Both the position numbers and the translations under genes were made by a program. From a virus: a stretch of DNA of 52,025 nucleotides. The notes beneath the pieces are model-generated. The model did no database searches. It had not been told where the DNA came from and saw only the letters and a program-made list of their open reading frames with translations. Shown piece by piece: positions 11,815-34,604 of the stretch (position 1 is the first letter of the stretch; each line of letters starts with the position of its first letter). The stretch covers positions 1 through 52,025 of the IMG/VR virus record IMGVR_UViG_3300035701_005466. One strand, written 5' to 3'.

Positions 11815-11827
11815 TTAACTCTAAGAT

Positions 11828-17752: not shown

Positions 17753-20688
17753 TTAGATATTGGTCTATTGTCTGTTGTTAGCGATGTTTTTTCATTATCC
17801 GATAATGTTGACATGAATTTCCTATCATGCGGAGAATCAGACAACATTATACCAGAAAATGTCCAATCTGACTTGTTATCAGCTGTATCTACAGATCTAA
17901 CGCGGTAAAAATATGAATTAGCAAGATCAATATCTTGATCTATAAAAAATCTATTACCAATAAAAATTTTATTATCATTCATTAATGATGGTGATGATAT
18001 TCCTTGCGATTTACTTGATTCACGTGTAATTTTAGCTATATTTGTGTATATTAATGCACTAGCTTCTTTAGAATTCATTGATGTAATTTTAGCACCAAAT
18101 ATTTTATTTGTTACTGCACGCTCAATATCCCAACTATCAATAAATTCACCATCATATTGCCATGAAACTACTAAATGAAATGGTCTTATAGACGTTGGTG
18201 TTGATCTTACCCATACAATTTGCGGTTTAACTATCTCTGGCACAACAGATACTTTTGTAATATCAGAATGCGTACTAATAAATGCTCCACTCTGCATTGC
18301 AATAACTCTATAATCATATTTCACATTCAATTTAGCATATTCTGGTCTAAATTTTGGTTTCTCATCTAGTGAAATGTTGTCTATAAAATAACTTTCTGTA
18401 GTAGCTGGCATAGCATCCCAATTATAATTTCCATACTGTCTTCTCTCAACTTGAAAAACTGTTCGCTTGGCTGTTGCAGCTAATACATCTTGATCACCTA
18501 TTAAGTCATTTGGTGAAAAGTCGTTTGTCCCAATAGACCATTTAATAATAACATTCGATGGAACATTATCTACTGAATGCACTAATGATTGAACATTTAC
18601 AGGATTATCGGAAATTGGTTTGACTGTTACAAACACGATGTTTGATAATGCACATGATGATTTATTGCCGCGATTGTCTACTGCAAATACGTTATATTGA
18701 TATTTTCTATCAAATTTAGCAGTACTATCATTAAATGTAGCCGAGCCCGATTCAGGATCTAAAATGCCATTCCAACACTGATGTGAATTGACATCAAAGT
18801 GTGTCCCTAATCTTGACTTGGATCTTTTAGCAGAAGAATATGAAATTCCAAGTGTAAATGTATCTGCTACTGATGGTTGCCTAAAACTATTCTCATTTAA
18901 ACTGACATCTCTTCTACCAACAACAAATTTAGTTATTCTACTATCATCACATGATACTAGAATATTTACTATAGCACCACCTTGTATCTGTTCAGCAGTT
19001 ATTGATGGAACAGGTAATGGAATTGGATCACCATGCCCTGGCAACATTATTGAACATGAAAATGGTGTTGAAGATTTCATTCCAAATGAATCAACTGTAT
19101 AAAATCTATATTCTAGTTTTTGCCCTGGTTTTACATTTGAATCAATAAATGTAGTAGATTTATTTGAGCCCAATCCAGAATCACCAATATGATAAAATCC
19201 AGTTGCAGTTGAAATTGGAACATTTCTTGTAAATTGCTCTTCTTCTGTGCTTAATAGAACAACAGACTGCGGTATTATTCCACCCTTTCTAAAAATTTCA
19301 ATGTGGTCTAAAAACTTGCCATCACATGTTATTGAGAATCTTGGTTTTCCGCTTACTACAGAATACAGAATACTTGGTGAAGATGGTGGACTTAGTAATT
19401 TTACATCTACATTAACTAATCTTGATCTAGGACCTTCTACTCCATCATTTGTAACTGCACTTGCATAATATGTGTATCCCGCACCGTATATTATGGAAGG
19501 ATCAAAATACTCTATTTCAACAAATGAACCTATAATTTTATTTCTAGCTAAAGACAATCTAGTTAGCTCATAAAAACCAGCTGAATTATTTACTTCAGTA
19601 AAAGTATTGTTGTTTGCTACAGAAGAACCTTGCAGAACATTTATTCCTTGTTGGTTAGCTACTTTTAATGGAATAATTATTTCTGGTGACTCTGTCAATG
19701 TTCTTTGATTAATATAAAATCCAACATTCTCTACAACTGATCTATCAACATTTGATAAAGACACTAAGCCTGCAGTAGTTGTTTCTTTTCTATTTGTATT
19801 AACAATTGGAGGTAATGCTCTTGGAGCCGATGACACTATTATTTTTTGTTTAGAAAATTTATCATCTTTAACAGTAGTTGTTAATTTATTTCCAACACCA
19901 ATGTCAGCTGCACGAAATGCCATATTCGCAATACTATCAGCAGATTTTGTTCTTGAAACAAGTGGTGTAGAATCTACCATAGCAGAAAATGAAGGTTTTG
20001 GTGCACTTACAGAACCATTAGATGAACGCATTATTCTAATAAATGAAATATTGCTTATTTCATCTGCTGCTATAGATACTAATACTCTAGCATAAAAACT
20101 GTCAAGTGCCCCAAAAGTTCTATCATTGTTTATTTCTATTAGATCTATTTCTGGTTTAGGTAATTTTTTTGATGAATTTGGTGTTGCTGTTGACAGACCA
20201 AGTTGAGCAGTTGATTTAACTATTTCAGATGCTTGATTTGAAATTGAATATTTTGATATTAAATCAGCAGTAGATCCAGAACTTGATACTTTAATTGGAG
20301 CTATACCTGTAGTAAATGCAGTTCTAACTGTACTGACATCTTGTACACTTTTAATAGCTAAATCATTTAATGCTATTTGTAAATCTGCAATTGAAGCTGG
20401 CGGAATAATTACAGATGGTACTTGCGTTATTGATGTTAATGCAATTTGCGTTTCTGTAATCTTAGTTGGAGTTGATGAAATTATTTTTGCATCAGCCATC
20501 AGCTGTTCAACCACTGTATTTGCTGGAATTAATGGTTGAATCGATGCAGGTACAACTTTTGTTACTAATGTCTGTGTAGATACAGGCACAACCTTTGTTG
20601 CTAGTGTACTTATTGGAGTTATAGATGCTTTAGTGGCAGATGCAACTGACAACGGTACTATTCGTTGTATTTTGGGTGGTGTACTCAT
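17737..20688 (-). CDS. Large virion protein with tandem fibronectin III-like domains
   Basis: Seen: 983 residues. The N-terminal 165 residues are Pro/Thr/Val-rich and carry short repeats (ATKVVPVSTQ and VTKVVPASIQ). From about residue 170 the protein shows repeated fn3-type endings: YTYYASAVTNDGVEGPRS, YRFYTVDSFGMKSS, YQYNVFAVDNRGNKSS, YDYRVIAMQSG and YFYRVRSVDTADNKSDW. This gives about five modules of 110-150 residues. Known: fn3 repeats in phage virions occur on tail fibres and decorate surfaces, and are thought to bind carbohydrate weakly. It overlaps the upstream gene by four bases (ATGA) and the downstream one by 16. No catalytic motif was seen. A long fibre-like or baseplate-attached protein is inferred. 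Confidence 0.7.
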   Translation of the reverse strand: MSTPPKIQRIVPLSVASATKASITPISTLATKVVPVSTQTLVTKVVPASIQPLIPANTVVEQLMADAKIISSTPTKITETQIALTSITQVPSVIIPPASIADLQIALNDLAIKSVQDVSTVRTAFTTGIAPIKVSSSGSTADLISKYSISNQASEIVKSTAQLGLSTATPNSSKKLPKPEIDLIEINNDRTFGALDSFYARVLVSIAADEISNISFIRIMRSSNGSVSAPKPSFSAMVDSTPLVSRTKSADSIANMAFRAADIGVGNKLTTTVKDDKFSKQKIIVSSAPRALPPIVNTNRKETTTAGLVSLSNVDRSVVENVGFYINQRTLTESPEIIIPLKVANQQGINVLQGSSVANNNTFTEVNNSAGFYELTRLSLARNKIIGSFVEIEYFDPSIIYGAGYTYYASAVTNDGVEGPRSRLVNVDVKLLSPPSSPSILYSVVSGKPRFSITCDGKFLDHIEIFRKGGIIPQSVVLLSTEEEQFTRNVPISTATGFYHIGDSGLGSNKSTTFIDSNVKPGQKLEYRFYTVDSFGMKSSTPFSCSIMLPGHGDPIPLPVPSITAEQIQGGAIVNILVSCDDSRITKFVVGRRDVSLNENSFRQPSVADTFTLGISYSSAKRSKSRLGTHFDVNSHQCWNGILDPESGSATFNDSTAKFDRKYQYNVFAVDNRGNKSSCALSNIVFVTVKPISDNPVNVQSLVHSVDNVPSNVIIKWSIGTNDFSPNDLIGDQDVLAATAKRTVFQVERRQYGNYNWDAMPATTESYFIDNISLDEKPKFRPEYAKLNVKYDYRVIAMQSGAFISTHSDITKVSVVPEIVKPQIVWVRSTPTSIRPFHLVVSWQYDGEFIDSWDIERAVTNKIFGAKITSMNSKEASALIYTNIAKITRESSKSQGISSPSLMNDNKIFIGNRFFIDQDIDLANSYFYRVRSVDTADNKSDWTFSGIMLSDSPHDRKFMSTLSDNEKTSLTTDNRPISKWRNK

Positions 20689-21311
20689 CTTTTTCTCGTA
20701 GTTATATTGCCTGCAGAACGTGTATCATCAGGTTTACTTATTGATTTTTTGTCAATAACTGTTTGAGAGTCAGTAGAAATGGCAATAAACGGATCAAATG
20801 ATTTTCTACCATTTAAGTCATTTCTAATATCTAATTGTTGCAATCCATTAGAACTACTTGAAAACGTTCTTAAAATAAATCCTGGATTGCCTTGCTCAGC
20901 ATCACCAATTATATCCATGTCTATCTGAGCAAGGCTTGTTCCTGTTCTTTGGTATATTCCATTATTATTTCTTTGGTCAGCAGCTAGACTAATGCTATCA
21001 TTATTTGGTAATAGCATTTGTGGTATTAGCTCAAATCCTGGAGATGCTGTGAATAAATGGTTTATTGGTTCTAATGGTGCAATAGTACCCATTACATCTT
21101 TAATGAATGGAGCTTCAAGTGACAATGTTGCATCTATCTGTAATTCACGTTCATTATCAGTAAGTGATCCTGTAAACCATGGATCATAGTCTATACCATC
21201 ATCAAATAATGCAAAATATTCAAAATTTAGATCACCAATAGCATAAAGTTTACGGCCATGCTCTGTTAAAACAATGTCTATAACTCTGCTTTGTTTATTT
21301 AAATAACCCAC
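20685..21311 (-). CDS. Virion structural protein, VLTxHGRxL N-terminal domain (paralogue 2)
   Basis: The 208-residue protein starts MGYLNKQSRVIDIVLTEHG, with GRKLYAIGDLNFEYFALFDDGIDY continuing the module shared with 13511-14224. After about residue 65 it is polar and probably partly disordered (SDSQTVIDKKSISKPDDTRSAGNITTRKR at the C-terminus). Known: this N-terminal module recurs in structural genes of T4-like environmental phages; its function is not established. It is preceded by the 806-residue virion gene at a three-base gap and overlaps the 983-residue gene by ATGA, so the three are probably made together. Confidence 0.72.
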   Translation of the reverse strand: MGYLNKQSRVIDIVLTEHGRKLYAIGDLNFEYFALFDDGIDYDPWFTGSLTDNERELQIDATLSLEAPFIKDVMGTIAPLEPINHLFTASPGFELIPQMLLPNNDSISLAADQRNNNGIYQRTGTSLAQIDMDIIGDAEQGNPGFILRTFSSSSNGLQQLDIRNDLNGRKSFDPFIAISTDSQTVIDKKSISKPDDTRSAGNITTRKR

Positions 21312-21314
21312 ATT

Positions 21315-23735
21315 TTAACTAGTTGACGCTGAAACAAAGGCAGATGCCAATTGGGCTAAAGTTTGTTGCGGATTTATATCATTAGCAACATCTACTAGTC
21401 TGCGAGCTCCACCCAGTAATTTCTCGGGTTGCATAAATGAAACTGGATGCTCTTCTGATTGCACAAATGCACTGGGAGTAGACAATGATGCAGAATTTGA
21501 TGGTATAGCAGGCATTCCAAATGGATTATTTAATAACCATCCTGGGGCAGAACCTGAAATTCCAGCAAGAACTCCAGACAATCTGTATAGTAAGGCGAAA
21601 TCTTGACTTCCAATAGAACCAGTATTCATTATCATTCCAAATGTTCTTCCAATTTCGCACCCATTGCCTGGAGGAGCTGAATAAATATCTGTTTGAAATC
21701 CATCCATTAATGGGAAAAAATAACTTGGTACTCCGCCGCCTTGCAATCCATCTGGCCAAATAAATGCATTAGAACCAGAAATGGAGTCTTTTTTTATTTC
21801 TATATTTCTAATTGCTTGTTTGGAAGTATAAGATCTTCTATTTATTGGTGGTTGATTTGTCTCATATGTTATCTCTAATCTTACTTGTCTAAAGTATGAA
21901 ATTCCTTTTTCTGCATCTGGTACAGAGCCAGTTGTATCTTGATCTGTTCTAACACTATCAACTAAAAGTAATTCCCATGTACCACTTATTTGTGTGCCAC
22001 GTAATCCTGGTCTAAACCCATTCCATTTATTTTGATCAAGAATATAATCTTTATCTTGATAATAATTTCCTATTCCAAGACTTGTATTTACATCATACGA
22101 TATACTTGCTGGAAAAATCCATGGTGCATTTGCACTAGGCTCGACGAGGCTGGCCGTGCTGGGAGGACCAGCATTTGTACCAGAAAATAATTCATAATAA
22201 TCTTGAGTTGGATCAGAATTAATATTTTTCCTACCATAAATTGGATCTAATAGAGGATAAATTGGTCTTATCGTTTCAGCCCCAACATTAGATCCAGTTG
22301 TTGGCCATTCATTAAACGATGCGGTAACGCCACCTAAACCTGTTAACCACCCACGCGGTGGAGAACCAGCACTAGTATGAAGACCTGTTGGTAACTGTGT
22401 CGCATCAGTTGTCCAAGGAATATTATTTCCCCATGCATTGCTACCATTTGGTGACCCATTATAGTTCATTGCAACTGGTATATCTTTAAATATATGCCTA
22501 GGATTTGCAATTGCAGAACTATCAGAAAAAATTGTCCTTATGCTTCTATCCCTACTCCAAACTGGATATCTTGATGTAAAAGATCCAGTAAGTAATTGTG
22601 GATTTCTATTTAACATTTCAGTATCTACATTTGAAGCAAATTGCAATCCATAATTTTTATCTGTCATCTGTGTAAGTGGATCCCATAACACAAATGATGA
22701 AACATAAAATTTTGGATTAACAATATCTAAAATTCCATTATTGGCAATATCGTTAGGGTTTAAATATTGATATCCACCAACTGGTATTTTTTGAAAATTT
22801 GGGTCATTTCTTACTGGATGACCATTATTAAAACTTACATTTGGAGATCGTAATGCTATACCAAGACATGCAAGTGGCCAATTTCCAGAACGACCATTAT
22901 CTGCGCCATGTTGTATTATCTCTATCCAAACTTTTATATCAACTAAATTTCCATTTACTGGAACACTTATTGGAATTGTAAGCGGTGTATACACACTAGC
23001 ACCAGCACTGTATCCAACTCCTGTTACGAATGATATTGCAGCACCATATGATGAACTAAAATGACGAGAAGCATATGTGCCAGATGGCGGATTTCTTATC
23101 ACTGTATCAAATATTGATGCAGTATGTTTAACGATAATTGTTTGTAATCTGTTTTGCTTCGAATAAAACATATTACCAGATGCTGGAACTGGTGAACTCT
23201 CTAAAGCTTGTGTTCCACTAAGAAAATAATTTAAAGTCCTAGTTTCAATATAACTTGATGTTAATGATAATCCAACAAATGCATTATTCATTCCAATAGA
23301 TGCATGTGTCCATGATGGTGAAGCAAATGTTCCTGTTGGCTGCAACTGTCCAGCATTAACATCAATTACAGCTGTCGATGGCCAGGCTGCAGTATCAATA
23401 GATGTCGATGGTAAACCAAGCAAAATTGAATTTAACTTCTTGCGCTCGTATAATCTACCTGTTGAAATTGCAGCTTCAAGATATAATGAACCAGTAATTA
23501 TTGTTGGATCTGTTGGTGAAGCATAGACATTTGATGGACCTTTTGCAAATGTCATTACACTTCCAGACATTTGAACAGAATCAAATTTACGAAGGACTAA
23601 GTTTGACTTAACAATAGATGGACGTGAACGTGATATTGGACCACTCCCAATAAAATTTGCTGGTGGTAAGACTCCACGACGGCCATTGGCGAATCTCATT
23701 CCACGACGTGGTCGATATACTTTAACCTTTTTCAA
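21315..23735 (-). CDS. Virion protein with proprotein-convertase P-domain-like fold
   Basis: Seen: 806 residues, with a basic start MKKVKVYRPRRGMRFANGRRG. Around 235-300 it reads TIPISVPVNGNLVDIKVWI, then GIALRSPN, and around 585-645 RGTQISGTWELLLVDS followed by FRQVRLEITYE. These are the first and last strands expected of a P/Homo B jelly roll (typical forms: VTVDIxHxxxGDLxITLxSP and GTWxLxVxD...LxSWxLxF). A long insertion lies between them. The C-terminus is helical and Ala/Ser-rich (PQQTLAQLASAFVSASTS). Known: such beta-sandwich domains often act as adhesion or stability modules. The call is pattern based. The gene overlaps the 262-residue ORF by four bases, so it belongs to the tail-fibre run. 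A receptor-binding or tail-surface role is inferred. Confidence 0.6.
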   Translation of the reverse strand: MKKVKVYRPRRGMRFANGRRGVLPPANFIGSGPISRSRPSIVKSNLVLRKFDSVQMSGSVMTFAKGPSNVYASPTDPTIITGSLYLEAAISTGRLYERKKLNSILLGLPSTSIDTAAWPSTAVIDVNAGQLQPTGTFASPSWTHASIGMNNAFVGLSLTSSYIETRTLNYFLSGTQALESSPVPASGNMFYSKQNRLQTIIVKHTASIFDTVIRNPPSGTYASRHFSSSYGAAISFVTGVGYSAGASVYTPLTIPISVPVNGNLVDIKVWIEIIQHGADNGRSGNWPLACLGIALRSPNVSFNNGHPVRNDPNFQKIPVGGYQYLNPNDIANNGILDIVNPKFYVSSFVLWDPLTQMTDKNYGLQFASNVDTEMLNRNPQLLTGSFTSRYPVWSRDRSIRTIFSDSSAIANPRHIFKDIPVAMNYNGSPNGSNAWGNNIPWTTDATQLPTGLHTSAGSPPRGWLTGLGGVTASFNEWPTTGSNVGAETIRPIYPLLDPIYGRKNINSDPTQDYYELFSGTNAGPPSTASLVEPSANAPWIFPASISYDVNTSLGIGNYYQDKDYILDQNKWNGFRPGLRGTQISGTWELLLVDSVRTDQDTTGSVPDAEKGISYFRQVRLEITYETNQPPINRRSYTSKQAIRNIEIKKDSISGSNAFIWPDGLQGGGVPSYFFPLMDGFQTDIYSAPPGNGCEIGRTFGMIMNTGSIGSQDFALLYRLSGVLAGISGSAPGWLLNNPFGMPAIPSNSASLSTPSAFVQSEEHPVSFMQPEKLLGGARRLVDVANDINPQQTLAQLASAFVSASTS

Positions 23736-24520
23736 TCGGAATCGTCCCCTCTGTCTAGAACCTGAATAGTACCACTAATATCAATGTGACTCTCAGCAAT
23801 TGGTCTAATTTGGTATTGATACTTTGGTCTTTCTAGCATATGACTTTCAACAACTAATTCATCACCATTAAAAATGGTGCTTGCTGGTAATAGTTTTTCT
23901 ACAACCGAAAGCGTTGACATGTCAAAGAAATCTAGCATCTCAACAAATGTCTTGAAGCTTGGTGCACCTTGAAGCCTCTTAAAGTAGGTCTCTCTCATCT
24001 GTTGGAGACCTTCGTAGTCCTCTCTGTACCTATTAATAGGAAGACCAAGGAAGTTATTAAGCTCGTCATATGAGGCTATCAGATGCGAAATGTCCTCATT
24101 AAGAGCATCATACATATTGAACTCTAAAGAGACATACCTTTCATCTTGATATACATCTTGTGGATCTATTGATGAACCATCAAATGCTCTAACTTTTTCT
24201 TGATTCCATCCGTAATCAATACTTGGAATATACGCATAATCTTCAAGAAACTTTGTAAAATTGTTGGCGTTTCCAATAAATCCAACAGCAGTTCCATTTG
24301 AATGGTATGGACTTGAATCCATAATTTGAAAACTTCCGCTTACATCTGCAGATGCTCCATCATTTAAACGCCAATGTAGTAAAAGATCCTTGTTGTCCCA
24401 AGAAGATACTGTGCCGTATGATTCATAGTGTCTTGTATGCGCGTACAATTCATCACTAGTCAATGACCTATTCCATATTCTGACCTCTTGGGCCCAAAAT
24501 TCACCTGATGAGCTGATCAT
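23732..24520 (-). CDS. Truncated tail protein: end of a LamG domain plus C-terminal domain
   Basis: Seen: 262 residues that begin in the middle of a domain. SGEFWAQEVRIWNRSLTSDE followed by a helical stretch and DLLLHWRLNDG is the closing part of a LamG fold. The 642-residue gene upstream (29080-31008) has the same pattern (SLDNISAWSIAKTKASLS, then LIAAWRFNDAF). The frame is open for ten further codons upstream (RQWVGAQLGN), which continue the LamG sense but have no start before an in-frame TAA at 24551-24553. So the gene looks like the 3' piece of a formerly longer tail gene. The C-terminal half is helical (REDYEGLQQMRETYFKRLQG) and ends in strands. ATG 24520 lacks a clear ribosome site and sits one base past the TAA of the upstream ORF. 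It may still be translated by coupling. Confidence 0.7.
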   Translation of the reverse strand: MISSSGEFWAQEVRIWNRSLTSDELYAHTRHYESYGTVSSWDNKDLLLHWRLNDGASADVSGSFQIMDSSPYHSNGTAVGFIGNANNFTKFLEDYAYIPSIDYGWNQEKVRAFDGSSIDPQDVYQDERYVSLEFNMYDALNEDISHLIASYDELNNFLGLPINRYREDYEGLQQMRETYFKRLQGAPSFKTFVEMLDFFDMSTLSVVEKLLPASTIFNGDELVVESHMLERPKYQYQIRPIAESHIDISGTIQVLDRGDDSD

Positions 24521-24521
24521 A

Positions 24522-26270
24522 TTACCAAGTTGGGCTCCAACCCATTGTCTTTAGGAACTGACTAGCTTGACCATCAGTACTTAATAATTCTGCCTGTGAA
24601 CCAGTTGTTACAGCTGAATACATATACACACCTGAGCATGCAACTCTATTTGTGTACCCTGGGCCAGCACCCCAGCCATATGTCCCAGTAACATTAACCG
24701 TAAGTTGCAGTTGAGTAAATGTTCCAGTTACAGCTTCTAAGTCAGAATACAGTTTAACTCGAGAATTTGTTACATCATATACGAACAGCCATGGGTGCAC
24801 TCTGTCACCATATGGAACTGTTATAGAACCAGTTGTTGAATTCGCAACGCAATATATTACTGGCTTCTGCACACCGCCAACATTTACAACACCGCCCCAT
24901 GATGCGCTCGGTGATGTAAAAGCACATCCTGTGCCTAAAATTGCAGCTGAAGTTCCGGCGACGGATGAACCAGATGCTGTCGCATATACAAGCATTGCAA
25001 AAGAGCCAGTTGGATCAAATAAACTGTTTCCTGGCGTAGCCAAAGTATGAACACCGCGGTCATTTGTTAAAATTATTCTTATTCCCTTGCGCGTCCACCC
25101 TGGAACTGCATGACGAAAAGCGTCTACTCCGGACGTAATATAGCGCCAGCCAATTATATTTTTCCCATCCCATCTATCAAATGTATCTAATGCGCTTACT
25201 TCTTCTTGATGATTCCACGTAGCTGTCCATGGAGTTATCCCAAGACTCTTCCAGTGACCAGGAAGAAATGGCGCTTTAATTGACCCACTGTCAGTTGGGC
25301 AATCTTTCCATGTAACTGTCCAGCCAAGCCTTGTAAGAAAATCTGCAGATGCAGATGCAGAACATAATGCTTCAACGATAGAACCAGTTGCAACAGCTAA
25401 CCATGAAATTGATGATGATGTTGTTGCTGCGCCAATTGAACCAAATCCCTTTATGTCATCAGCCACTGCAGGTTGTCCACCAGACATGATCAGTGAAATA
25501 TCTGTTGCTGCCCAAACCTCTGACGTCGTTTTGTTGTATATGAGCAAGATTGGGTGCACACGGTCTGTGTGCGTCATCGACGAAGGCCCCATTAAATTTT
25601 TGTTACCGAAGTTTGAAGTAAGTCTTAAATGACCGGCTGATGCAAATGGAAAATCAATATAAATTCTATTCGCTGCAGAAGCACCTATCATTCCAAGTAA
25701 TGCTGTATTTGCGCCCGATGCACCAGCGTTGATATAGCCAAGAAATGCAACTGATGTAGTAGATGGATTTGGACCGACAGCGGCTGCAGCTGCAACGCGA
25801 GTGTTTGAAGAACCAGTAATTGCAATAAATGTTCTCAACCACCCTCCGCCAACTGGAGCTTGGCCATATTGCACGCCAATGCCGGCTCCACCATTAGCAG
25901 TAAGCGTAAAACCTGCTGAGCCACTTCCAACTAAGTTACCTGTTAATTCCTGACACCCAAACCAAACACCCCACGGCGATAATCCCAGTGCTTGCCAATG
26001 ATTATTTTGCTGTGGCATTAAAGGATTAACTGACCCAGAATCTTGTGAAATGACAAGTAATGATGACGTGCCAGGAGTTCCAGGAGCAAGAGTTGCAGTT
26101 ACACCAATGTCAGCTCCCCAAATCTTTCCAGCATTTGCATAAGTTGCTAGACCGGTTGCGCCACCTATTGTTGCGATAGTAGAATCGCTAACAGTCCAAA
26201 CCGCTGTAGTTGTAATATTGGACGTTGTAGCATCGCTATACGTTCCAGTTGCTGTATGCTGAAGTGTCAT
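24522..26270 (-). CDS. Tail protein: headless Big_2 domain plus two tandem LamG-like modules
   Basis: Seen: 582 residues. The start (MTLQHTATGTYSD, then VWTVSDSTIATI and GLATYANAG) is a bacterial Ig-like Big_2 fold missing its first strand. That strand, LVSIAVSPSPGVMTS, is found at the C-terminus of the 642-residue protein 2.8 kb upstream. Two homologous modules follow: residues 85-321 (HWQALGLSPWGVWF, DRVHPILLIYN, FLTRLGWTVTW) and 334-582 (HWKSLGITPWTATW, DRVHPWLFVYD, FLKTMGWSPTW). A third copy ends the neighbouring 668-residue protein. There is no catalytic motif; carbohydrate or receptor binding is inferred. It appears to be the distal part of a formerly longer tail protein. Confidence 0.72.
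   Translation of the reverse strand: MTLQHTATGTYSDATTSNITTTAVWTVSDSTIATIGGATGLATYANAGKIWGADIGVTATLAPGTPGTSSLLVISQDSGSVNPLMPQQNNHWQALGLSPWGVWFGCQELTGNLVGSGSAGFTLTANGGAGIGVQYGQAPVGGGWLRTFIAITGSSNTRVAAAAAVGPNPSTTSVAFLGYINAGASGANTALLGMIGASAANRIYIDFPFASAGHLRLTSNFGNKNLMGPSSMTHTDRVHPILLIYNKTTSEVWAATDISLIMSGGQPAVADDIKGFGSIGAATTSSSISWLAVATGSIVEALCSASASADFLTRLGWTVTWKDCPTDSGSIKAPFLPGHWKSLGITPWTATWNHQEEVSALDTFDRWDGKNIIGWRYITSGVDAFRHAVPGWTRKGIRIILTNDRGVHTLATPGNSLFDPTGSFAMLVYATASGSSVAGTSAAILGTGCAFTSPSASWGGVVNVGGVQKPVIYCVANSTTGSITVPYGDRVHPWLFVYDVTNSRVKLYSDLEAVTGTFTQLQLTVNVTGTYGWGAGPGYTNRVACSGVYMYSAVTTGSQAELLSTDGQASQFLKTMGWSPTW
24525..26018 (-). repeat. Tandem LamG-like protein modules (third copy at about 26275-26991)
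   Basis: At protein level, residues 85-321 and 334-582 of the 582-residue tail protein are repeats of one module. Both open with HW-x-(S/A)LG(L/I)(S/T)PW, carry D-R-V-H-P-x-L-x-x-Y-x-x-T-x-S in the middle and close with FL-x-x-(L/M)GW-x-x-TW. The last 240 residues of the 668-residue esterase protein hold a third, more diverged copy (DGLVHPVAIKVNRTG, LLQALGFTITW). The repetition is in protein, not in exact DNA, so duplication is not recent. Confidence 0.65.
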
Positions 26271-26271
26271 T

Positions 26272-28278
26272 TCATGTCCATGTTATAGTGAACCCTAGTG
26301 CCTGCAGGAGTGATTTCACCTGAGCGTCTGTCATTTCTGCCTTCGATCCAAACCATGATACCTCATATAAGAATCCCTCAGCAGCTGCAGCAAGTGCTCC
26401 AGTTTCTGCACCAAGATATAAGCCAGATCCTGTCATTGCCGTACCAAACGTTGGCGTCATTTTATCAATATCAGTGTAACCAACGCATGCCGCACCAGTA
26501 CGATTTACTTTAATTGCAACTGGATGAACAAGCCCGTCACATGGACTTCCTGTTCCAATGTTAACATTTGAAGTTGTAGACTCTGTTGCTGTTTTTCCCG
26601 TTGACTTTAGTATAACTGCAGAACGAGTTGATGCACTAGTTCCTTGAGCAATAATGCCGCGATCAGCTGCTGGTGCAGAGCTTGGAAACAAGATATACGA
26701 AATTGTTAGCATGCTTGTGCTTGACAGATCTGGGAGTGCAGAATTTACAGAAACAATTTGCCTTGCAGATCCATCGGTAACATTCATTGATTTTCTAACC
26801 CAGCCAGTTACGCTTTGGAACGTTGAAGTATTTATTGAACATGTTAATGCATTATTGCTGATGAAATCTATTGGATACCCACCAGCGGCCGATGTATTAA
26901 TTACATCTTGAAATGAATGTCCCATATCTGGAACTCCGCCACCCGGTAGAGTTGTTAATGAACTGCCGGTGAGGAATGCTTGCCATTGTGCATATGAGCC
27001 AGGTGCATATTTCTTGCTTAGTGCATCACGAATAACACCTGTAATTCCATCAATCACAGAGACAGAAGCGATCACACTTGTATCAGAATCTCCATTTACA
27101 TTTGTAGCTTTAACAGTGACAGAATATGTTCCTGAAACTGCATATGCATGAAGAACTGGTGACAATGAAGATGTTGAACTTCCATCACCGAATGACCATG
27201 AAAGTGATGTTATAGCTCCACCATAAGAAACAGATGTACTTGTAAATGAAGCTGTTAACCCATTAGATGTGTCAGCATCCAGTGATGCTACTGGAAGAAC
27301 ATTAATCCCACACGCATTAGCGATTGCCGCAGCATAAAGATTACCTCCAAGAATATAACCATTAGCATTGTAGTGAGTACCATCAAACCAACCAGAAGCT
27401 TGATTAATTTGATCTCTATTTACTAATGTTGCGCTATTACTTGCTGTAGCACAATAATTTGCCTGCCAATACCTGGTTGTATCTTTAAATCCATATGTTG
27501 CGCTGTCAGCGTCAGCATTTAATTGGCCAATAACTGCTGGAATTGTTTTACCGCCGGGTCCAATTTTTCCAAGTGCATTTCTCATTTGAGTAAAATGGTC
27601 AATTAGAAATTGGCCATATGCATTTGCATTTGCAGATGATTTAGAATCTGCTTCGCCTTGATCCCAAACCATTACAAGCTCAGTACAGCTTAGCGCTGTC
27701 ATTACATTTTGAACAAATACTACAGATGAAGATGCTAAGTTTGGTGGTGATGTCGATGCTGGATATGTTGACAACGGTCCCCACTGCGCGACCGCGCTAC
27801 CACCAATTGAATATCCGCCAAATGCAAATCTTGTTGGGTTAACCCTATCGAGCGTTCTCAGCGATGATGCTTCAAACCCAAGTTTAAGAGCGCCGCCAAA
27901 ATTCATTGGCGCAAGTGATCCAGAAAATACTTCCCAAACCGGTGGGTCTGTTGGCGAAGCAGATTCTGATGCTGTTATTTGAACGTTAGTGTAGCTCGCT
28001 GTGTATGACAATAATGTCGATGAAAGATTTGTTATTGGGCCATGCGGTTGTGAGTTAGATTGCCCGAAAAATAATATAAGTGTCTTAGCGCCAAAAATTG
28101 CATTCGATGAAAGAGATAACGGGTTAAATGTTGATGCTAGTGTTCCAGTGCCGACAAAAACATATGATCCTGCCGAGCTTAAATTAATCGCTCCAAATAT
28201 AAGACCTGCAGATCCGGTGTTAATTGCTCCAATTTGAACAGATCCCCAAGATCCTATTGAAAGTGTTGTATATCCCAT
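26272..28278 (-). CDS. SGNH/SASA-type carbohydrate esterase with PKD domain (tail enzyme)
   Basis: Seen: 668 residues. The N-terminal 60 are Gly/Ser-rich beta repeats (GSAGLIFGAINLSSAG). The catalytic domain at about 65-322 has FFGQSNS (block I, S74 in GQSN), FAFGGYSIGGSAVAQW at 151-166, VWDQGEADS at 204-212 and FDGTHYNANGY at 298-308 (D299, H302). These match the Ser, Asp and His of the SASA/acetyl-esterase branch of SGNH hydrolases. A PKD domain (about 330-410, SWSFGDGSSTSS, YSVTVKATNVNGDS) and a LamG-like module (about 430-668) follow. Known: such enzymes remove O-acetyl groups from sialic acids, xylans or O-antigens. Inferred: on the virion it would strip acetyl groups from the host glycan. 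No signal peptide, as expected for a tail protein. Confidence 0.8.
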   Translation of the reverse strand: MGYTTLSIGSWGSVQIGAINTGSAGLIFGAINLSSAGSYVFVGTGTLASTFNPLSLSSNAIFGAKTLILFFGQSNSQPHGPITNLSSTLLSYTASYTNVQITASESASPTDPPVWEVFSGSLAPMNFGGALKLGFEASSLRTLDRVNPTRFAFGGYSIGGSAVAQWGPLSTYPASTSPPNLASSSVVFVQNVMTALSCTELVMVWDQGEADSKSSANANAYGQFLIDHFTQMRNALGKIGPGGKTIPAVIGQLNADADSATYGFKDTTRYWQANYCATASNSATLVNRDQINQASGWFDGTHYNANGYILGGNLYAAAIANACGINVLPVASLDADTSNGLTASFTSTSVSYGGAITSLSWSFGDGSSTSSLSPVLHAYAVSGTYSVTVKATNVNGDSDTSVIASVSVIDGITGVIRDALSKKYAPGSYAQWQAFLTGSSLTTLPGGGVPDMGHSFQDVINTSAAGGYPIDFISNNALTCSINTSTFQSVTGWVRKSMNVTDGSARQIVSVNSALPDLSSTSMLTISYILFPSSAPAADRGIIAQGTSASTRSAVILKSTGKTATESTTSNVNIGTGSPCDGLVHPVAIKVNRTGAACVGYTDIDKMTPTFGTAMTGSGLYLGAETGALAAAAEGFLYEVSWFGSKAEMTDAQVKSLLQALGFTITWT

Positions 28279-28670
28279 TATGGTGGAAACCCAGCTGACC
28301 CAGAAAATACAATTGATGATGTTGCATACATCAATTCATCTGATTCAAATCTAATTATAGAAAGAGTAAATGAACCTGTGACAGTTTCTCTAATCATTGC
28401 AATATTGTATGGATTTTCATCAAATATTGGAGCATTTACCAGGTCTACACGGCCATTTGATGATGTGACAAATATTGTTCCAGTTTGAGTTGATAATGTT
28501 GCTTTCTCATACTGAAGTGACAAAACGTTATTTGTATTTACATCTGTAAATGTTGCTATTGCCCCGCTAAGAACAGTTGGTTCAAGAACACCATTCCCAA
28601 CCAATGGAAACCGTACCCTTATCTCGAACGAAAAGGGACCACCGACACCGGTGCCACCAATTTCAGGCAT
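28278..28670 (-). CDS. Small beta-rich tail protein, 130 aa
   Basis: Not recognised. The sequence alternates hydrophobic and polar residues (FSFEIRVRFPLVGNG, SGAIATFTDVNTNNVLSLQ, GTIFVTSSNGRVDLVNAP, SFTLSIIRFES), suggesting a single beta sandwich. It overlaps the upstream gene by eight bases and the esterase gene by one (TAATG), so it is translated with them. Within the inserted block it may be a structural adaptor or chaperone for the esterase; this is position-based inference. Confidence 0.62.
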   Translation of the reverse strand: MPEIGGTGVGGPFSFEIRVRFPLVGNGVLEPTVLSGAIATFTDVNTNNVLSLQYEKATLSTQTGTIFVTSSNGRVDLVNAPIFDENPYNIAMIRETVTGSFTLSIIRFESDELMYATSSIVFSGSAGFPP

Positions 28671-29070
28671 TGGCGTCTGTTAAAGTCCATGCTGTAATTG
28701 TAACTGTGCCATTAATTGTAATTGCAATATTGTCAAGTGTTAAATCGCCACCGCCGCCACTCACAGTAACAGTTCCCTGCATGTGGCAAGTTGTTCCATC
28801 TGATGCATATAGCCTGAAGTGTGCAGCAGTTCCTGATGCTAGTGCTGCAGAAGTTGTCCAGGATCCAAGTTTTGCTTTGGAGCCCGCAGCTGCAGCTGAC
28901 AACCAATCAGCTGGAAGAGTGAGCGCTGCCAGCGCAGTACCAGAATCAGCTTGCGAGCAGTCTGCGGGCTGGCTGCCTGTTCTAATTTTAAGAACAGCAG
29001 ATACACCTGTAGCAGTCTCAATCGCATCAAGACGCGCATTTCTAACAGTTACAGAAAGTTGAGTTGCCAT
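28663..29070 (-). CDS. Phage tail-associated protein with Ala-rich start (ATQLSVTVRNARLDAIE type)
   Basis: The 135-residue protein begins MATQLSVTVRNARLDAIE, with TATGVSAVLKIRTGSQPADC, LTLPADWLSAAAAGSK and HFRLYASDGTTCHMQGTVT following. This start and body match a protein type frequent in tail regions of unrelated siphophages and myophages, where it is annotated hypothetical or structural. By eye it is clearly richer in G and C than its neighbours (runs such as gcagctgcagctgac on the plus strand), a sign of recent acquisition. It starts nine bases after the interrupted 642-residue gene, with a GGAAATAAC spacer as ribosome site. Confidence 0.7.
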   Translation of the reverse strand: MATQLSVTVRNARLDAIETATGVSAVLKIRTGSQPADCSQADSGTALAALTLPADWLSAAAAGSKAKLGSWTTSAALASGTAAHFRLYASDGTTCHMQGTVTVSGGGGDLTLDNIAITINGTVTITAWTLTDANA

Positions 29071-29079
29071 GTTATTTCC

Positions 29080-31008
29080 TTATGAAGTCATCACACCTGG
29101 TGATGGAGATACTGCAATACTTACAAGCGTTGGTACAGATCCAGTTGCATTTAGTGCAATGCTTCCGAATGTAGAGCCAAGTGTGCCAGTAATTAGTGAA
29201 ATCATTATTCCAGTTGAACTTAATCCAATAGTACCTAGTGTTACACCCAATGATCCTGTTGAAATATTTACTGTTCCAGATGAGAATATGAATGAAAGCT
29301 CAGAGCCAACAGGAATACGCAATGAATAAGCACTTTTCTCTGCAACTATTCTGCTAACAGGAAGTCTTGCTTCTGTTTTCCTGGCATACTCTTTAAGTCT
29401 AACAAACCCATTATCCAATCCATAAGATCGTAATAATGATTCGACTGATTCACGCGTTCCCTTTGTTTTATAAATGTATACAAGATTTAGTATAGTTCTA
29501 CGCCAAAAAGCTGTTTTAATACTTGATAATTTTGTTGTCAATCCAATATTCCCATTTGGACCAGTTTGCACATCACGTCCAATAAAATATTTCATTGCAT
29601 CTATATTTGCAAAGCTTCCATGAAGATCCCATCCAAAAAATCTGCCAACTTCATCAAGCAATTCATCTGGAGCTTGGTCAAAGCTACCGTATTCAACTCG
29701 TCTCAAATTAACCAATTGATTGATATACAATTTAATTCTATCAAAATGTCTTGCTAGAATCAGAGCAAAATTCTTAAAAGTATCTGATGATTCTTTATTC
29801 CCTTCTGAATATATTCCTGGAAACATTTTGAAAATCATACTTTCGTTGTTTCTATCGTAAAGTGCACCAGTCACCTGTGCTCCAACAACATAGTAAACAA
29901 CATTTGGATCATATAGTGACAAGACAGGATCTGCAGATTCATTTACTAATGATCCAGATCCTCTAGATCCAGAGAAAAATGACTGTATTCTTCCATTTAA
30001 TCTATGACCAGAATTATCACGTACTATTGATGCAACTGAGCTTGGTGTATTAAAAAAAGCATCATTAAATCGCCAAGCAGCTATTAACCCAGATTGAGCA
30101 AATATTTTTCTGTTGTATGTTCCACTTAAACTTGCTTTAGTTTTAGCAATTGACCAAGCACTTATATTGTCTAAACTTCCAGTAAATGGTCTAACAATTT
30201 TGCTTGCTATAGAACCAGATCCTATAAAAAATGATCCTGATACTAAATCATATCGTGTCCCAATAATTATATTAGATGAATCAGTTAATACTGGATATAT
30301 ACCAGCTGTTCCAATGTACATAGCAGTAGAACCAGTCAATGATGTTCTATCCACCGTTGCTGCAAAAAATGAAGGCATGCTTGTGGTAGTACCTGAGACT
30401 GTAACGGTTGTTGAGCCAGAAATTACTTGAAAAAATATAGATGAACCTGAAGTGAAAACAGAGTATCCATCAGATGACCCAACTTTTTGTTTTTGGAATA
30501 TTACCTGTACATCATTTGATCCAGTTAAAGCTGGTACATCTATCCATCCCTGGATAGAGAATGATCCAGTTCCTGGACTTAAAAATGAAGTTTTAGAAAC
30601 GCCATCTTGTATACCAAAGTCGTCAATTCTGACATATGAGCTTGAAATAGCTGGATTTAATCTTAAGTGACTTAATGTTGATGGCCACAGATTAAGAAAA
30701 TACTGTTGATAGCCATCTAATGAATTTATAAACTGTTGTAGATCATCAACTGTACCACCAGCAGGATATGAATTTAGAATCTGATCAGCAGTAACTGTTG
30801 CATATGACTCAGCTGAATTAAATGTTACAAAGTTTGATAAATCTGAGTAATCAACTTTAAGCTGAACACTATCGGTACCCGTAGAAAGTGTACTGATAAG
30901 ATCATTTTCAGAAGAAATATTTGAAAATGATGATGCATTTTGAGTTGTTACTCCTGCAGCACCACCAGCATTTAAGTTACCATCAAAAAGCTTGAATATC
31001 TCTGACAA
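29080..31008 (-). CDS. LamG tail/baseplate protein with P2 gpI-like segment, interrupted 3' end
   Basis: Seen: 642 residues. A LamG domain spans about 140-320 (GTGSFSIQGWIDVPAL, FFAATVDRTSL, FTGSLDNISAWSIAKTK). A helical part at about 405-530 (SDTFKNFALILARHFDRIKL, DELLDEVGRFFGWDL, YIYKTKGTRESVESLLRSYG) resembles the P2 gpI/tail-protein-I fold found in baseplate wedges. A conserved stretch to about residue 575 follows, then Gly/Ser/Thr-rich repeats and an abrupt end in LVSIAVSPSPGVMTS, the first strand of a Big_2 domain with nothing after it. The missing remainder begins the 582-residue ORF 2.8 kb downstream. Directly preceded by the DNRLRE-like gene and gp6. Baseplate role by order and pattern. 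Confidence 0.7.
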   Translation of the reverse strand: MSEIFKLFDGNLNAGGAAGVTTQNASSFSNISSENDLISTLSTGTDSVQLKVDYSDLSNFVTFNSAESYATVTADQILNSYPAGGTVDDLQQFINSLDGYQQYFLNLWPSTLSHLRLNPAISSSYVRIDDFGIQDGVSKTSFLSPGTGSFSIQGWIDVPALTGSNDVQVIFQKQKVGSSDGYSVFTSGSSIFFQVISGSTTVTVSGTTTSMPSFFAATVDRTSLTGSTAMYIGTAGIYPVLTDSSNIIIGTRYDLVSGSFFIGSGSIASKIVRPFTGSLDNISAWSIAKTKASLSGTYNRKIFAQSGLIAAWRFNDAFFNTPSSVASIVRDNSGHRLNGRIQSFFSGSRGSGSLVNESADPVLSLYDPNVVYYVVGAQVTGALYDRNNESMIFKMFPGIYSEGNKESSDTFKNFALILARHFDRIKLYINQLVNLRRVEYGSFDQAPDELLDEVGRFFGWDLHGSFANIDAMKYFIGRDVQTGPNGNIGLTTKLSSIKTAFWRRTILNLVYIYKTKGTRESVESLLRSYGLDNGFVRLKEYARKTEARLPVSRIVAEKSAYSLRIPVGSELSFIFSSGTVNISTGSLGVTLGTIGLSSTGIMISLITGTLGSTFGSIALNATGSVPTLVSIAVSPSPGVMTS

Positions 31009-32391
31009 TTAAATCACCCTAAATCTAAAACCGCCATCTATTATTTGACGACGACCCTGCTCATTAACAAGGAAAATAACTCTGTATGCATTTCCAGCAT
31101 GCAAATTATTCATGAATAATTTAAATGAATTACCATTTTCACCATAAGATAACTTGGTATGATTTTGTGATCCTGTACCAAATGGTATTACTCTTTCTCG
31201 TGTTGAATCATTTTCTATTGCATAATATGCTTGTTCAACAATGTATGGAGTAGATTTAAGTGATGCAGTCTGTACTACAGCAAGTGTATTTAGTTTTTTC
31301 CTGAACATGACTTCAAGTACTGCCACATCTTCAGGTAAATATTCATCTTGCATATTTCTAATGCGAGCTGTTAATGGTGATTGAACAAGTGATTGTACTG
31401 GACCAGCTGTGATTATTGAAAATGTTCCAGTATTAAATGCAAATGAACCAGAACCCCATGAATCATAAAAAATTGATCCGCTGTAAGGTCTTCCACTTGA
31501 AAATGTTCCAGTTGGCAATGAAAATGATGCACTATAAATACCAGTGCTTGTTCCACTCGATGCAGTCAAATATACTAAAACACCACTTGAATCAGAAATT
31601 GACACTGTCAAAAAATTACCAGGTAAATTTTGAAATGAGCCGCCAACTACGTCATATAAAAAAAGTGTTCCAGTACGGGCCCATTGCATATTAGCCCTAT
31701 CATCTCTTAGAGAGTCATTTGCCCTAGCCTCAATATATGGAACTCTATCTGTATAAAATGAATTTCTTGAATAAAACTTTTTTTGATAATAATCAATATA
31801 CACAGAATTTGATTCAATTGATGCTGTCATCATTAAACCAATTCCATTATTAGCAATAGTTCCAGAAAGCCATCCGTTTACTATTGGTGTAATATCAACT
31901 TCTACATCTTCTGTGCCTAAATCAAAATGTATTGATGCAGTTGGCGATGATAAATAATCACCACCGGGTGTAGTCCAAAATGAAGTAGATGTCCTCTTAT
32001 CCCAATTTGCATACCCTTTATCAACAAGATCAATATCATTACCAGTTCCTTCATCCCATGCAGATGAAACTGGCTTTAATGTCATATCATAACTTGTTGG
32101 TTGAGTGCCACCATGGGTTTTATGATTCATTCTAAGATAAAATGTTAATCCAGCATATGGTAGATCGCCAGATGCAGTCAGCGCTGTAAATGCGCTCATA
32201 TCAAATTGCATTAATATTCTGCTTAAGCTAGATGATCCAATCATTCCAGCTGCACCAGAAATTCCACTTCTTTTAAAAACGTCTAATTCTTCAGACAGCC
32301 CAACATTTGCCCCACTAAGCCTAGTGTAATTTGGATAACGAAAATCATTTGTTATCCATGTATCCTTAGTTGGGTATATTCTGAATATCAT
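31009..32391 (-). CDS. DNRLRE-like beta-sandwich virion protein
   Basis: The 460-residue protein begins MIFRIYPTKDTWITNDF, then LSEELDVFKR, SRILMQFDMSAF, LTFYLRMNHKTHGG, PVSSAWDEGTGND and VDITPIVNGWLSG. This is the strand order of DNRLRE/CBM96-like carbohydrate-binding modules, which carry a TxDTxI start and a W-x-E-G-x-G-ND block. The C-terminal half has Ig-like strands and ends VNEQGRRQIIDGGFRFRVI. Known: the fold is common in secreted and tail-associated adhesion proteins. It lies between gp6 and the LamG/gpI-like gene, overlapping gp6 by four bases. Probable baseplate or tail-fibre connector; no enzyme motif was seen. Confidence 0.65.
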   Translation of the reverse strand: MIFRIYPTKDTWITNDFRYPNYTRLSGANVGLSEELDVFKRSGISGAAGMIGSSSLSRILMQFDMSAFTALTASGDLPYAGLTFYLRMNHKTHGGTQPTSYDMTLKPVSSAWDEGTGNDIDLVDKGYANWDKRTSTSFWTTPGGDYLSSPTASIHFDLGTEDVEVDITPIVNGWLSGTIANNGIGLMMTASIESNSVYIDYYQKKFYSRNSFYTDRVPYIEARANDSLRDDRANMQWARTGTLFLYDVVGGSFQNLPGNFLTVSISDSSGVLVYLTASSGTSTGIYSASFSLPTGTFSSGRPYSGSIFYDSWGSGSFAFNTGTFSIITAGPVQSLVQSPLTARIRNMQDEYLPEDVAVLEVMFRKKLNTLAVVQTASLKSTPYIVEQAYYAIENDSTRERVIPFGTGSQNHTKLSYGENGNSFKLFMNNLHAGNAYRVIFLVNEQGRRQIIDGGFRFRVI

Positions 32392-34208
32392 CGTGCTGAC
32401 CCCACTATATCTTTATTAGGATATTTAACTTGAAAAATTGATTCATCTGGACAAATTAGCATTCCATCTCTAAGATTATTAGAAATATTAAACCTATCAT
32501 TTGAATAGACTAAGCCATCAGTTATTCCCATTACATTTGTAAATGATAACTCATAAACTGAGACTACACCTAAAACATTGTTTAATACAGATATTACATC
32601 TGATACTATTATCTGCTGTCCTATCTGTGATCTATCTTGACTGAAATAATCAGCTAGAATGTTTGTGCAATTCAATAAAACCTCAGAGCGGTTTCGACCT
32701 GGAGACACTATAATTCCAAAGTGCACTCTTATATCTAAGATACTTGCATCTAAAATGTTAATTCCGTCAGTTAACATTTTAAATTTCTTAAGATATGTTA
32801 TTAAATTAGATTTTAGTGTTGATGTTGCTAGAGATAAACTACCATTAGAATCTAGTGACAATATGTGAACATCATATGCATAGCGCCCAGAGTTTGATGG
32901 CTTTACAAAAACTTTCTCTGGACGACCAAACTTAGACGGTATTGAAAGTATTCTAGCTACAGCATCTTCTCTAGTAACGATACGACTCTGTGCAGCAAAG
33001 AAAGCTGCTGCATTTAATTTAATTTCTCTGATGGTTTCTTCTGGACCACCACCTGTCAATGAAACAGGATTTAGGCAACCAATAGATCCTTCTACATTTC
33101 CTTTTTTTAATGGATCTAGTCCAGTTGATGAGAATGATAAGTTTGCATTAGATGCTTGTCTTATACTTCTTGCTGGTGCATTTGTTTCATTTCCACCACC
33201 AACTCTGTATGTTACAGTAAGCGTTGTATTATGTGGAGATAAGCCAAGACTTCTAGTTTTAAGAAAATTCTGTGGATCTATAGAAAAGCTATTGAATGTT
33301 CTTCTTCCAGCAAGTGGTAAAGCATAACTTGCAACATTTGGAATGAGCTCATCATCAAAGCTTAATCCATCTCCAGACCCAAATATTAATGTTGATATAC
33401 CAGAAATTATATCTCTATCTACAATAAATCTATATGGTGCTGCCAATAATTTCATTGTATACGGTACAGTATCAGAGTCACTATTGACATTTGTAGTAGA
33501 TGTAAAAACCCAATCTTGTGCAAGATATTCAGTTTCTACCCATTCATTTCCAAGTGAATCAAATACACTTATAATCTCTATAACATCAACCTGTCCTAAA
33601 TCAAGACGCCGAAATTGTTGAAAATCTGTTATTGTAAAATTCTCTGTTACAGTATTACCAGCAACAATATCTACAGATCTCTGTATAGCAAAAAATGTTG
33701 GTATTCCAGTAGTTGAATCAAATTGAGATCCTGTTACTGATCTTCCTATAGATGCTGTAAATGGAATGTCGTCCAAAGTTTCATAAACTTTTCCATTTGT
33801 ACCAACAGCTTGAGATCCTTTTAAAAGTAATGGTGTATATGAATCATCTGGTACTACTTCACCAAATGAATTTACAGTAGCTGGAACTTGTATAGCCCAA
33901 AGTAATTTTCCAACAGAGGGCCGCTTTCCTTGCGGTCTATATCCTCTCATTTTTGCATTTGCTATAACATTTTTAAGTTGTGTAGCTGAGTCACCAGATT
34001 CATTGAATGCTTGATCAATATAGAAGTTTAGGCCGTCACCAACATAAGCACTCCATTCTAGAAATGCCATTCCAGGTGATGTCTCATTAAAATCTGTAAA
34101 TGATCCACTTGCATATGCTTTAGAGAATGTTATTAAATCTCTTTTTAATGATTTAAAGTCTCTGTTTAAAAGACTGACAATCTTTTCACCGTTAGTATTA
34201 ATTGCCAT
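32388..34208 (-). CDS. 6: Baseplate wedge protein, T4 gp6 / baseplate J type
   Basis: Seen: 606 residues. The N-terminus has a helical TSPGMAFLEWSAYVGDGLNFY segment (about 43-63), followed by MRGYRPQGKRPSVGKLLW. A long beta-rich middle leads to EETIREIKLNAAAFFAAQSR and IVTREDAVARILSIP (about 400-435), the conserved part of the baseplate J/gp6 family. LKKFKMLTDGINILDASILDI and VHFGIIVSPGRNRSEV follow, also a J hallmark. Known: gp6 dimers form the inner ring of the T4 baseplate. Length is close to T4 gp6 (660). The next gene upstream is gp25, as expected for a wedge operon, and the downstream neighbour overlaps by four bases. Confidence 0.87.
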   Translation of the reverse strand: MAINTNGEKIVSLLNRDFKSLKRDLITFSKAYASGSFTDFNETSPGMAFLEWSAYVGDGLNFYIDQAFNESGDSATQLKNVIANAKMRGYRPQGKRPSVGKLLWAIQVPATVNSFGEVVPDDSYTPLLLKGSQAVGTNGKVYETLDDIPFTASIGRSVTGSQFDSTTGIPTFFAIQRSVDIVAGNTVTENFTITDFQQFRRLDLGQVDVIEIISVFDSLGNEWVETEYLAQDWVFTSTTNVNSDSDTVPYTMKLLAAPYRFIVDRDIISGISTLIFGSGDGLSFDDELIPNVASYALPLAGRRTFNSFSIDPQNFLKTRSLGLSPHNTTLTVTYRVGGGNETNAPARSIRQASNANLSFSSTGLDPLKKGNVEGSIGCLNPVSLTGGGPEETIREIKLNAAAFFAAQSRIVTREDAVARILSIPSKFGRPEKVFVKPSNSGRYAYDVHILSLDSNGSLSLATSTLKSNLITYLKKFKMLTDGINILDASILDIRVHFGIIVSPGRNRSEVLLNCTNILADYFSQDRSQIGQQIIVSDVISVLNNVLGVVSVYELSFTNVMGITDGLVYSNDRFNISNNLRDGMLICPDESIFQVKYPNKDIVGSAR

Positions 34209-34217
34209 TTATTAACC

Positions 34218-34604
34218 TCATGCAATTGGAAACATTAGAAATAAGTTTATTGGAATATTTCCATATGTTAATTGCAATTCAATATTAAACCCAGGATCGG
34301 GAATTGATGCATCTTCTTCTGAAAGTGTGACAAATAGGCCGACAAGAGTTATAAATGGAAGCCATTGTGATAATTGGCTACTAATCCTATTTGCAATTTT
34401 TGCTTTGAGTGAATTTGTTTTGGGCTCAAACAAGTAATCTTGTAAGCTACAACCAAAATCTGCATGCATAACTCGTTCACCACGATTTGTAAGAAGCAAT
34501 GACCTTACATTAGATTGCAATGCAGATACAACATCTGATGTTGGCTCAAGATATCCTAATGAGCTTGTAGATAATGCGAATGGAAATGTTACACTTATAC
34601 TCAA
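34218..34604 (-). CDS. 25: Baseplate wedge protein, T4 gp25-like
   Basis: Seen: 128 residues with SALQSNVRSLLLTNRGERVM at about 28-47, HADFGCSLQDYLFEP at 48-62 and KAKIANRISSQLSQWLPFI around 69-87. This is the classical gp25/IraD family order, including the R-GER-(x)4-FGC/G-L core. T4 gp25 is 132 residues. Known: the protein joins the wedge and starts sheath assembly. The start used is TTG 34604; no ATG exists between it and the upstream gene and the ribosome site is weak, so the exact start is uncertain. The 44-base spacer before it contains an ATG with a 12-codon reading frame of no clear meaning. Followed by gp6 after nine bases. Confidence 0.87.
   Translation of the reverse strand: MSISVTFPFALSTSSLGYLEPTSDVVSALQSNVRSLLLTNRGERVMHADFGCSLQDYLFEPKTNSLKAKIANRISSQLSQWLPFITLVGLFVTLSEEDASIPDPGFNIELQLTYGNIPINLFLMFPIA

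Follow-up and report, generated by a model that had tools for sequence, protein, structure and literature searches.

In the donor-strand complementation of chaperone-usher pili, an immunoglobulin-like (Ig-like) fold lacks one strand, and that strand is carried on another protein. Ig-like domains are also exchanged among phage structural proteins, some of them made by frameshifting at the start of the domain (Fraser et al. 2006, as described in PMC5009743). In some Clostridium perfringens phages the tape measure gene is split into two adjacent open reading frames (ORFs) (PMC3118219), and phage genes can also be interrupted by introns, inteins or homing endonucleases (PMC3322345). Here we analyzed a tailed-phage fragment, the 52-kb IMG/VR virus record IMGVR_UViG_3300035701_005466, whose full 52,025 nucleotides are termed the window. 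Its minus strand carries the baseplate region of a contractile tail, in which a baseplate gene that is a single ORF of about 970-1,400 codons in nearly all relatives is found as three ORFs, with other genes between them. It is probable that this gene was broken, and that an adhesin cassette was imported as part of a recombined block.

The gene order on the minus strand is gp25-like, gp6-like, and then ORFs of 460, 642, 135, 130, 668, 582, 262 and 806 amino acids (aa). The features of the locus are as follows.

29080..31008, minus strand: 642-aa protein, the N-terminal part of the baseplate (wedge-type) gene, with LamG1, a conserved N-core, the first strand of LamG2 and a 65-residue extension
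29083..29313, minus strand: C-terminal extension of the 642-aa protein, with glycine/serine-rich strand repeats and the first strand of a Big_2 domain
29083-29130, minus strand: the Big_2 first strand itself, TLVSIAVSPSPGVMTS, at the C-terminus of the 642-aa protein; it matches small ORFs of two relatives, L093 and L094
28663..29070, minus strand: small virion protein of 135 aa that opens the block (phrog_3758 virion structural protein, E 9e-32)
28278..28670, minus strand: 130-aa ORF with its own start and stop, the middle of LamG2 of the baseplate gene
26272..28278, minus strand: 668-aa putative adhesin/esterase, with strand repeats, a SASA esterase, a PKD domain and a C-terminal adhesin-type domain
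24522..26270, minus strand: 582-aa putative adhesin, a Big_2 domain minus its first strand followed by two related beta domains (a duplicated domain)
23732..24520, minus strand: 262-aa C-terminal part of the baseplate gene, with the last LamG2 strands and a conserved C-core
23732..29070, minus strand: block of the five genes of 135, 130, 668, 582 and 262 aa, a candidate import delimited by composition at fourfold sites
32388..34208, minus strand: gp6-like baseplate wedge protein, the anchor of the comparisons (phrog_219 baseplate wedge subunit, 3e-17)
34218-34604, minus strand: gp25-like protein (PF04965, 1e-11)

Relatives were reached via alignments of gp6, which retrieved 80 contigs, and of the C-core, and both halves of the baseplate gene were located with N-core and C-core profiles. 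Scans of viral contigs with the 642- or the 582-aa protein as single query returned no relatives; searches of phage GenBank with the 582-, 668- and 262-aa proteins or the L094 adhesin, and of genome contigs with the 668-aa protein, gave no matches. The relatives are ~60-76% identical, so that the order of events is unreadable from the DNA. In L007, whose gp6 is 73% identical, a gene of 974 aa stands two places after gp6 as one ORF, and three ORFs of the window are colinear with it: residues 2-577 of the 642-aa protein align with 2-573, residues 8-121 of the 130-aa protein with 582-695 (E 2e-29), and residues 3-260 of the 262-aa protein with 715-972 (E 2e-118). Hence, the 130-aa ORF is the middle of LamG2, and the 262-aa ORF is the end of LamG2 plus the C-core. 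The 130-aa ORF also aligned with L092, L094 and L113. The N-core and the C-core lie within one ORF in all 33 loci that hold both and in 18 contigs added later, that is, in 51 of the 53 relatives checked; the two-ORF state was seen only in L093 and L094. Between the window and L007 the N-core is 65% and the C-core 73% identical with synonymous sites saturated, which argues that both halves were kept as coding genes. All pieces of the gene in the window are open and closely packed, each with its own start and stop.

The positions of the two breaks were mapped on a model of the L007 protein, which is good only in LamG2 (residues 550-745) and poor elsewhere, with a predicted local distance difference test score (pLDDT) of 44. 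In LamG2 it shows a jelly-roll that runs across both breaks (pLDDT mostly 63-86 as far as residue ~740), and fold matches of this region were of the LamG/concanavalin type. The loop that follows the first strand of LamG2 (550-561) holds the first break, and the second lies over one lost strand (706-710). Flavobacterium phage immuto has no LamG2, its two cores being only about 15 residues apart, which indicates that LamG2 is accessory and dispensable. Since the broken domain is accessory, both halves of the gene are likely to work, entering the baseplate as separate subunits.

The two other split relatives are both broken at the first LamG2 break, and carry adhesins of the 582-aa type there. 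In L094 the order is N-half, a 289-aa repeat protein, a small ORF (MSLCLSFAGSAGLDATTLVSITVSPSPMVLYL), the sequence UGA AGC AUG, an adhesin of 589 aa that is 48% identical to the 582-aa protein, and a 424-aa protein with LamG2 and C-core. In L093 the N-half is followed by a 393-aa repeat protein, a small ORF that holds a pair of strand motifs (VLVSIIVSPSPGV and TLTSLSLSPGAG), the sequence UGA AUG, adhesins of 327 and 611 aa, and a 435-aa protein with LamG2 and C-core. In both, the small ORF stops at an in-frame UGA after the first strand of a Big_2 domain and the adhesin starts there, with nothing between. The four adhesins (582 aa in the window, 589 aa in L094, 327 and 611 aa in L093) share one starting point within the Big_2 fold, and those of L093 and L094 are 46-50% identical to the 582-aa protein. 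None of the 135-, 130- and 668-aa genes of the window stands between the Big_2 parts in L093 or L094, so the division within Big_2 exists without the three-gene block. A single origin of the split was considered and is not supported: neither in the gp6 tree nor in those built from each half of the gene do the split phages form a group, hence the split arose, moved by recombination or healed more than once.

The window has the same two parts of Big_2. The 642-aa ORF ends in ...TLVSIAVSPSPGVMTS*, with the tail peptide TLVSIAVSPSP, and the 582-aa ORF begins with MTLQHTATGTYSD. When both ends were joined and compared with solved structures, the best match, 8gyr (Leptospira Ig-like domains), rose from 29.0 to 36.3 bits (E-value from about 1e-5 to 5e-8), and TLVSIAVSP fell on the first strand. 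Reading L094 across its UGA likewise raised the scores against eight solved Ig-like chains, by 4 to 29 bits. Furthermore, a profile built solely on the L093 and L094 small ORFs had the C-terminus of the 642-aa protein as its best outside match (E 0.0011 among 41,119 frames; the next was 0.42). The gain in structural match and the profile match show that the two ends are parts of one Big_2-type domain, beyond chance; comparison of the sequences thus confirmed the 642-aa end and the 582-aa start as complementary parts. The initial annotation of this DNA had proposed that joining the halves restores a normal domain. This holds for the solved structures, but not for the Pfam model (PF02368), where the score was 18.2 bits for the 582-aa start alone and 18.0 bits for the joined sequence, below the cut-off of 22.8.

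The composition of the locus was then compared at fourfold-degenerate sites. Every one of the 135-, 130-, 668-, 582- and 262-aa genes has a guanine-plus-cytosine (GC) content of 0.19-0.22 at these sites, and the neighbouring 606-, 460-, 642- and 806-aa genes have 0.09-0.14. The value is 0.203 for the five-gene block as a whole and 0.124 for a set of 36 other genes (Fisher 1.5e-10; permutation of genes, p 4e-5), while the tail of the 642-aa gene is resident-like at third positions (0.169). From these values we infer that the five genes, including the C-terminal half of the baseplate gene, came together, with the joint between the 642- and 135-aa genes.

Taken together, the explanation that we consider probable is that, in a small group of related phages, the second LamG domain of the baseplate gene would be a landing place for host-attachment genes. 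In the window the gene appears to have been cut twice within LamG2, leaving three pieces (N-half, 642 aa; middle, 130 aa; C-half, 262 aa) between which stand the 135-, 668- and 582-aa genes. Recombination would have delivered the adhesin cassette and the pre-split C-half as one block next to a resident 642-aa gene. Big_2 would not have been cut by this block, since in the relatives its first strand already has a small ORF to itself and the adhesin has its own start; in the window the first strand is the tail of the 642-aa protein, with the adhesin within the candidate import. Host binding would come from the 668- and 582-aa proteins, putative adhesins in view of their domain types (esterase, PKD, Ig-like, repeated beta). 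In favour of this explanation, L113 carries at 11301-12818, directly after an intact 974-aa baseplate gene, an adhesin with two domains akin to the C-terminus of the 668-aa protein, preceded by a small repeat protein of the 289-aa type; this pair is another position for such a cassette.

Several points weigh against this explanation. L094 (split) is the sister of L007 (intact) in the gp6 tree with 100% support, and no relative with the exact gene order of the window was found. At 44%, conservation of the 130-aa piece is below that of the other parts, and it may be decaying; a relative-rate test of its decay had a mixed outcome, with p 0.38 for one outgroup and 0.03 for another. In addition, the adhesin role is deduced from domain types, and a metagenome contig could be a chimera.

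The remaining readings are not all mutually exclusive with the one above, since recoding and completion in trans concern the division of Big_2, and the explanation preferred here concerns the arrangement of the genes. The first strand may complete the adhesin in trans, may be part of a longer product made through a leaky UGA in L093 and L094, or may be an old remnant. Recoding is possible, though on the unlikely side: a leaky UGA, or stop and restart, in L093 and L094 would yield a short peptide plus an adhesin with full Big_2, and the window would descend from such a phage through rearrangement, with this recoding lost and the strand left over as a remnant. The strand ORF and the adhesin are indeed in one frame in both phages, separated by UGA and then an A, and when L094 was read across the UGA, Big_2 rose above its cut-off (27.3 vs 22.7 bits). 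However, a shared frame is also expected from a simple nonsense change, and neither the second adhesin of L093 nor that of the window has such a frame upstream.

That the split is functional, with the first-strand peptide (the 642-aa tail, or the small ORFs of L093 and L094) completing the Big_2 domain of the adhesin in trans and thereby docking it, we regard as unlikely. The peptide is conserved at 10/11 and 9/11 residues, versus the lower identity of the adhesins given above, with differing codons at 9/10 and 8/9 of the conserved residues, although a stop separates it from the remainder of the domain in the window, L093 and L094. From this conservation we infer that it has a job of its own, and it may act in trans. 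The numbers of strands and adhesins agree as well (one and one in the window and in L094, two and two in L093), and two of the four adhesins lack a strand upstream in cis. Against this, only three phages are concerned, the first strand may be dispensable for the domain, readthrough in L093 and L094 could account for the conservation, and the AlphaFold model of the joined Big_2 of L094, read across the UGA, failed (pLDDT 35). A broader version, in which exchangeable adhesins dock on a phage baseplate through split-domain complementation, is quite unlikely: the peptide, free in some phages and here joined to the baseplate protein, would complete the Ig-like domain at the beginning of every adhesin, and three polypeptides would come together in the same way to rebuild the broken LamG.

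The initial annotation had read the locus as an intact gene, made of the 642-aa tail and the 582-aa protein, that was cut within Big_2 by a single 2.8 kb insertion of three foreign genes. What it observed is largely real, and its explanation is not quite right. The ORFs, coordinates and ends of both proteins are as it gave them, and three genes lie between the halves: the 135-aa gene, which is GC-richer (0.48), the 130-aa gene, and the 668-aa gene with its esterase and PKD matches (SASA 5e-8, PKD_4 9e-13). In its favour, the joined Big_2 fits solved Ig-like domains better than the 582-aa part does, and these genes do not stand between the parts in L093 or L094. Nevertheless, L093 and L094 hold the same parts as separate genes with the same ends and without the block, a finding that the annotation itself had named as decisive against it. 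Moreover, the 130-aa ORF is not foreign but the native LamG middle of the neighbouring baseplate gene, and the composition boundary encloses 135-130-668-582-262 rather than 135-130-668, the 582- and 262-aa genes sharing the block composition that the 642-aa tail lacks. The near-identical DNA at the two ends (ATGACTTCA and ATGACACTTCA) is at chance level, 39% of the 1640 gene-end/gene-start pairs in the window sharing an exact word at least equally long; microhomology as an insertion scar was thus rejected. We consider a simple insertion very unlikely. An intron or intein was also rejected, because the genes in the gap code for phrog_3758, SASA/PKD and Big_2 proteins with no homing endonuclease; no intron or RNA element was found, Rfam giving one sub-threshold hit only. 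An assembly chimera of different phages, or decay into pseudogenes, could draw on the metagenomic origin of the record and the sharp composition steps at 642/135 and 262/806, but is highly improbable given two other contigs with the same first break and the same gene type, and tightly packed open pieces with starts, stops and both cores conserved.

The place of the baseplate gene, after the gp25 and gp6 genes, is that of the gp7/gpI type, and this order is kept in the relatives. The Tail_P2_I match in the N-core is weak (12.4 bits vs a cut-off of 20.6). Comparison with known gp7/gpI gave no PHROG, PDB or above-cut-off Pfam match, the fold search matched the LamG part only, and a profile of the large gene had no match among solved structures. 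On gene order and the sub-threshold Tail_P2_I match, the 974-aa gene is a candidate member of the gp7/gpI family. The intact homologues lack the C-terminal extension of the 642-aa protein, whose repeats resemble the start of the 668-aa protein; the C-terminus of the latter is akin to the repeats of the 582-aa protein, as well as to the L113 adhesin. Relatives of the 135-aa protein are found in the phages Pan4 and Seuss and in Microcystis phages.

Other observations were made in the window and its relatives. The gp6 proteins of L007/L086, L092 and L094 are 73-76% identical to that of the window, yet GC ranges from 36% in the window to 57-65%, which indicates a strong shift in codon use between close protein relatives. 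Compared with the window, the homologue of the 806-aa gene has in its N-terminal part about 270 extra residues in L092 (10504-13569) and 230 in L086 (6650-9586), and in L113 it lies in two overlapping frames. An ORF of 1032 aa at 5338-8436 combines, in one protein, an SbcD-like (metallophosphoesterase) N-terminal part and an SbcC-like (AAA/SMC) C-terminal part. The C-terminal 80-140 residues of two proteins (311 aa, 11828-12763; 632 aa, 9916-11814) recur on several tail proteins of Microcystis phage Mel-JY01, which suggests a shared C-terminal module. Two others (208 aa, 20685-21311; 237 aa, 13511-14224) look like paralogues, since their N-termini match the same single Mel-JY01 gene. A glycosyltransferase-like protein (family 4 type) lies near the contig end at 49603-50709.

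Phages that change host usually swap whole fibre genes or fibre tips, whereas here the swap site would lie inside a conserved baseplate gene, which it breaks into separately translated pieces that remain conserved. The locus would thus be a natural split baseplate protein, with intact, singly split and doubly split relatives for comparison. If an Ig-like domain does reassemble in trans, this would be a plug-and-socket attachment of adhesins to the phage tail. In the open-access subset of the literature we found no account of adhesin genes lodged within a baseplate gene or of an Ig-like domain whose first strand is set apart from the remainder, and no direct precedent for split baseplate genes or donor-strand phage adhesins.

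The closest known systems each share part of this arrangement. Donor-strand complementation in chaperone-usher pili has the same layout, known here from the arrangement of sequences, but the missing strand is the first and not the last. With T4 gp7 and P2 gpI the window shares the order gp25-gp6-(460 aa)-baseplate gene and a weak Tail_P2_I likeness in the N-core; its gene differs in having two internal LamG domains and in being split into separate genes. The tape measure gene of the C. perfringens phages is likewise a tail structural gene found as one ORF or two among close relatives (PMC3118219); there the ORFs are adjacent, whereas here the gap is occupied by putative adhesin genes and a single domain is spread over three pieces. 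In splits by introns, inteins or homing endonucleases a conserved gene is likewise interrupted by other coding genes (PMC3322345), but here the inserted genes would code for adhesins of the virion, and every piece has a start and a stop of its own. Finally, as in the Ig-like extensions (PMC5009743), an Ig-like domain appears to have been added to virion proteins by promiscuous exchange, sometimes with recoding at the domain boundary. There the whole domain is appended by a programmed frameshift, with overlap in different frames; here the boundary lies inside the domain, after its first strand, with an in-frame UGA stop and restart in L093 and L094 and a physical separation of 2.8 kb in the window.

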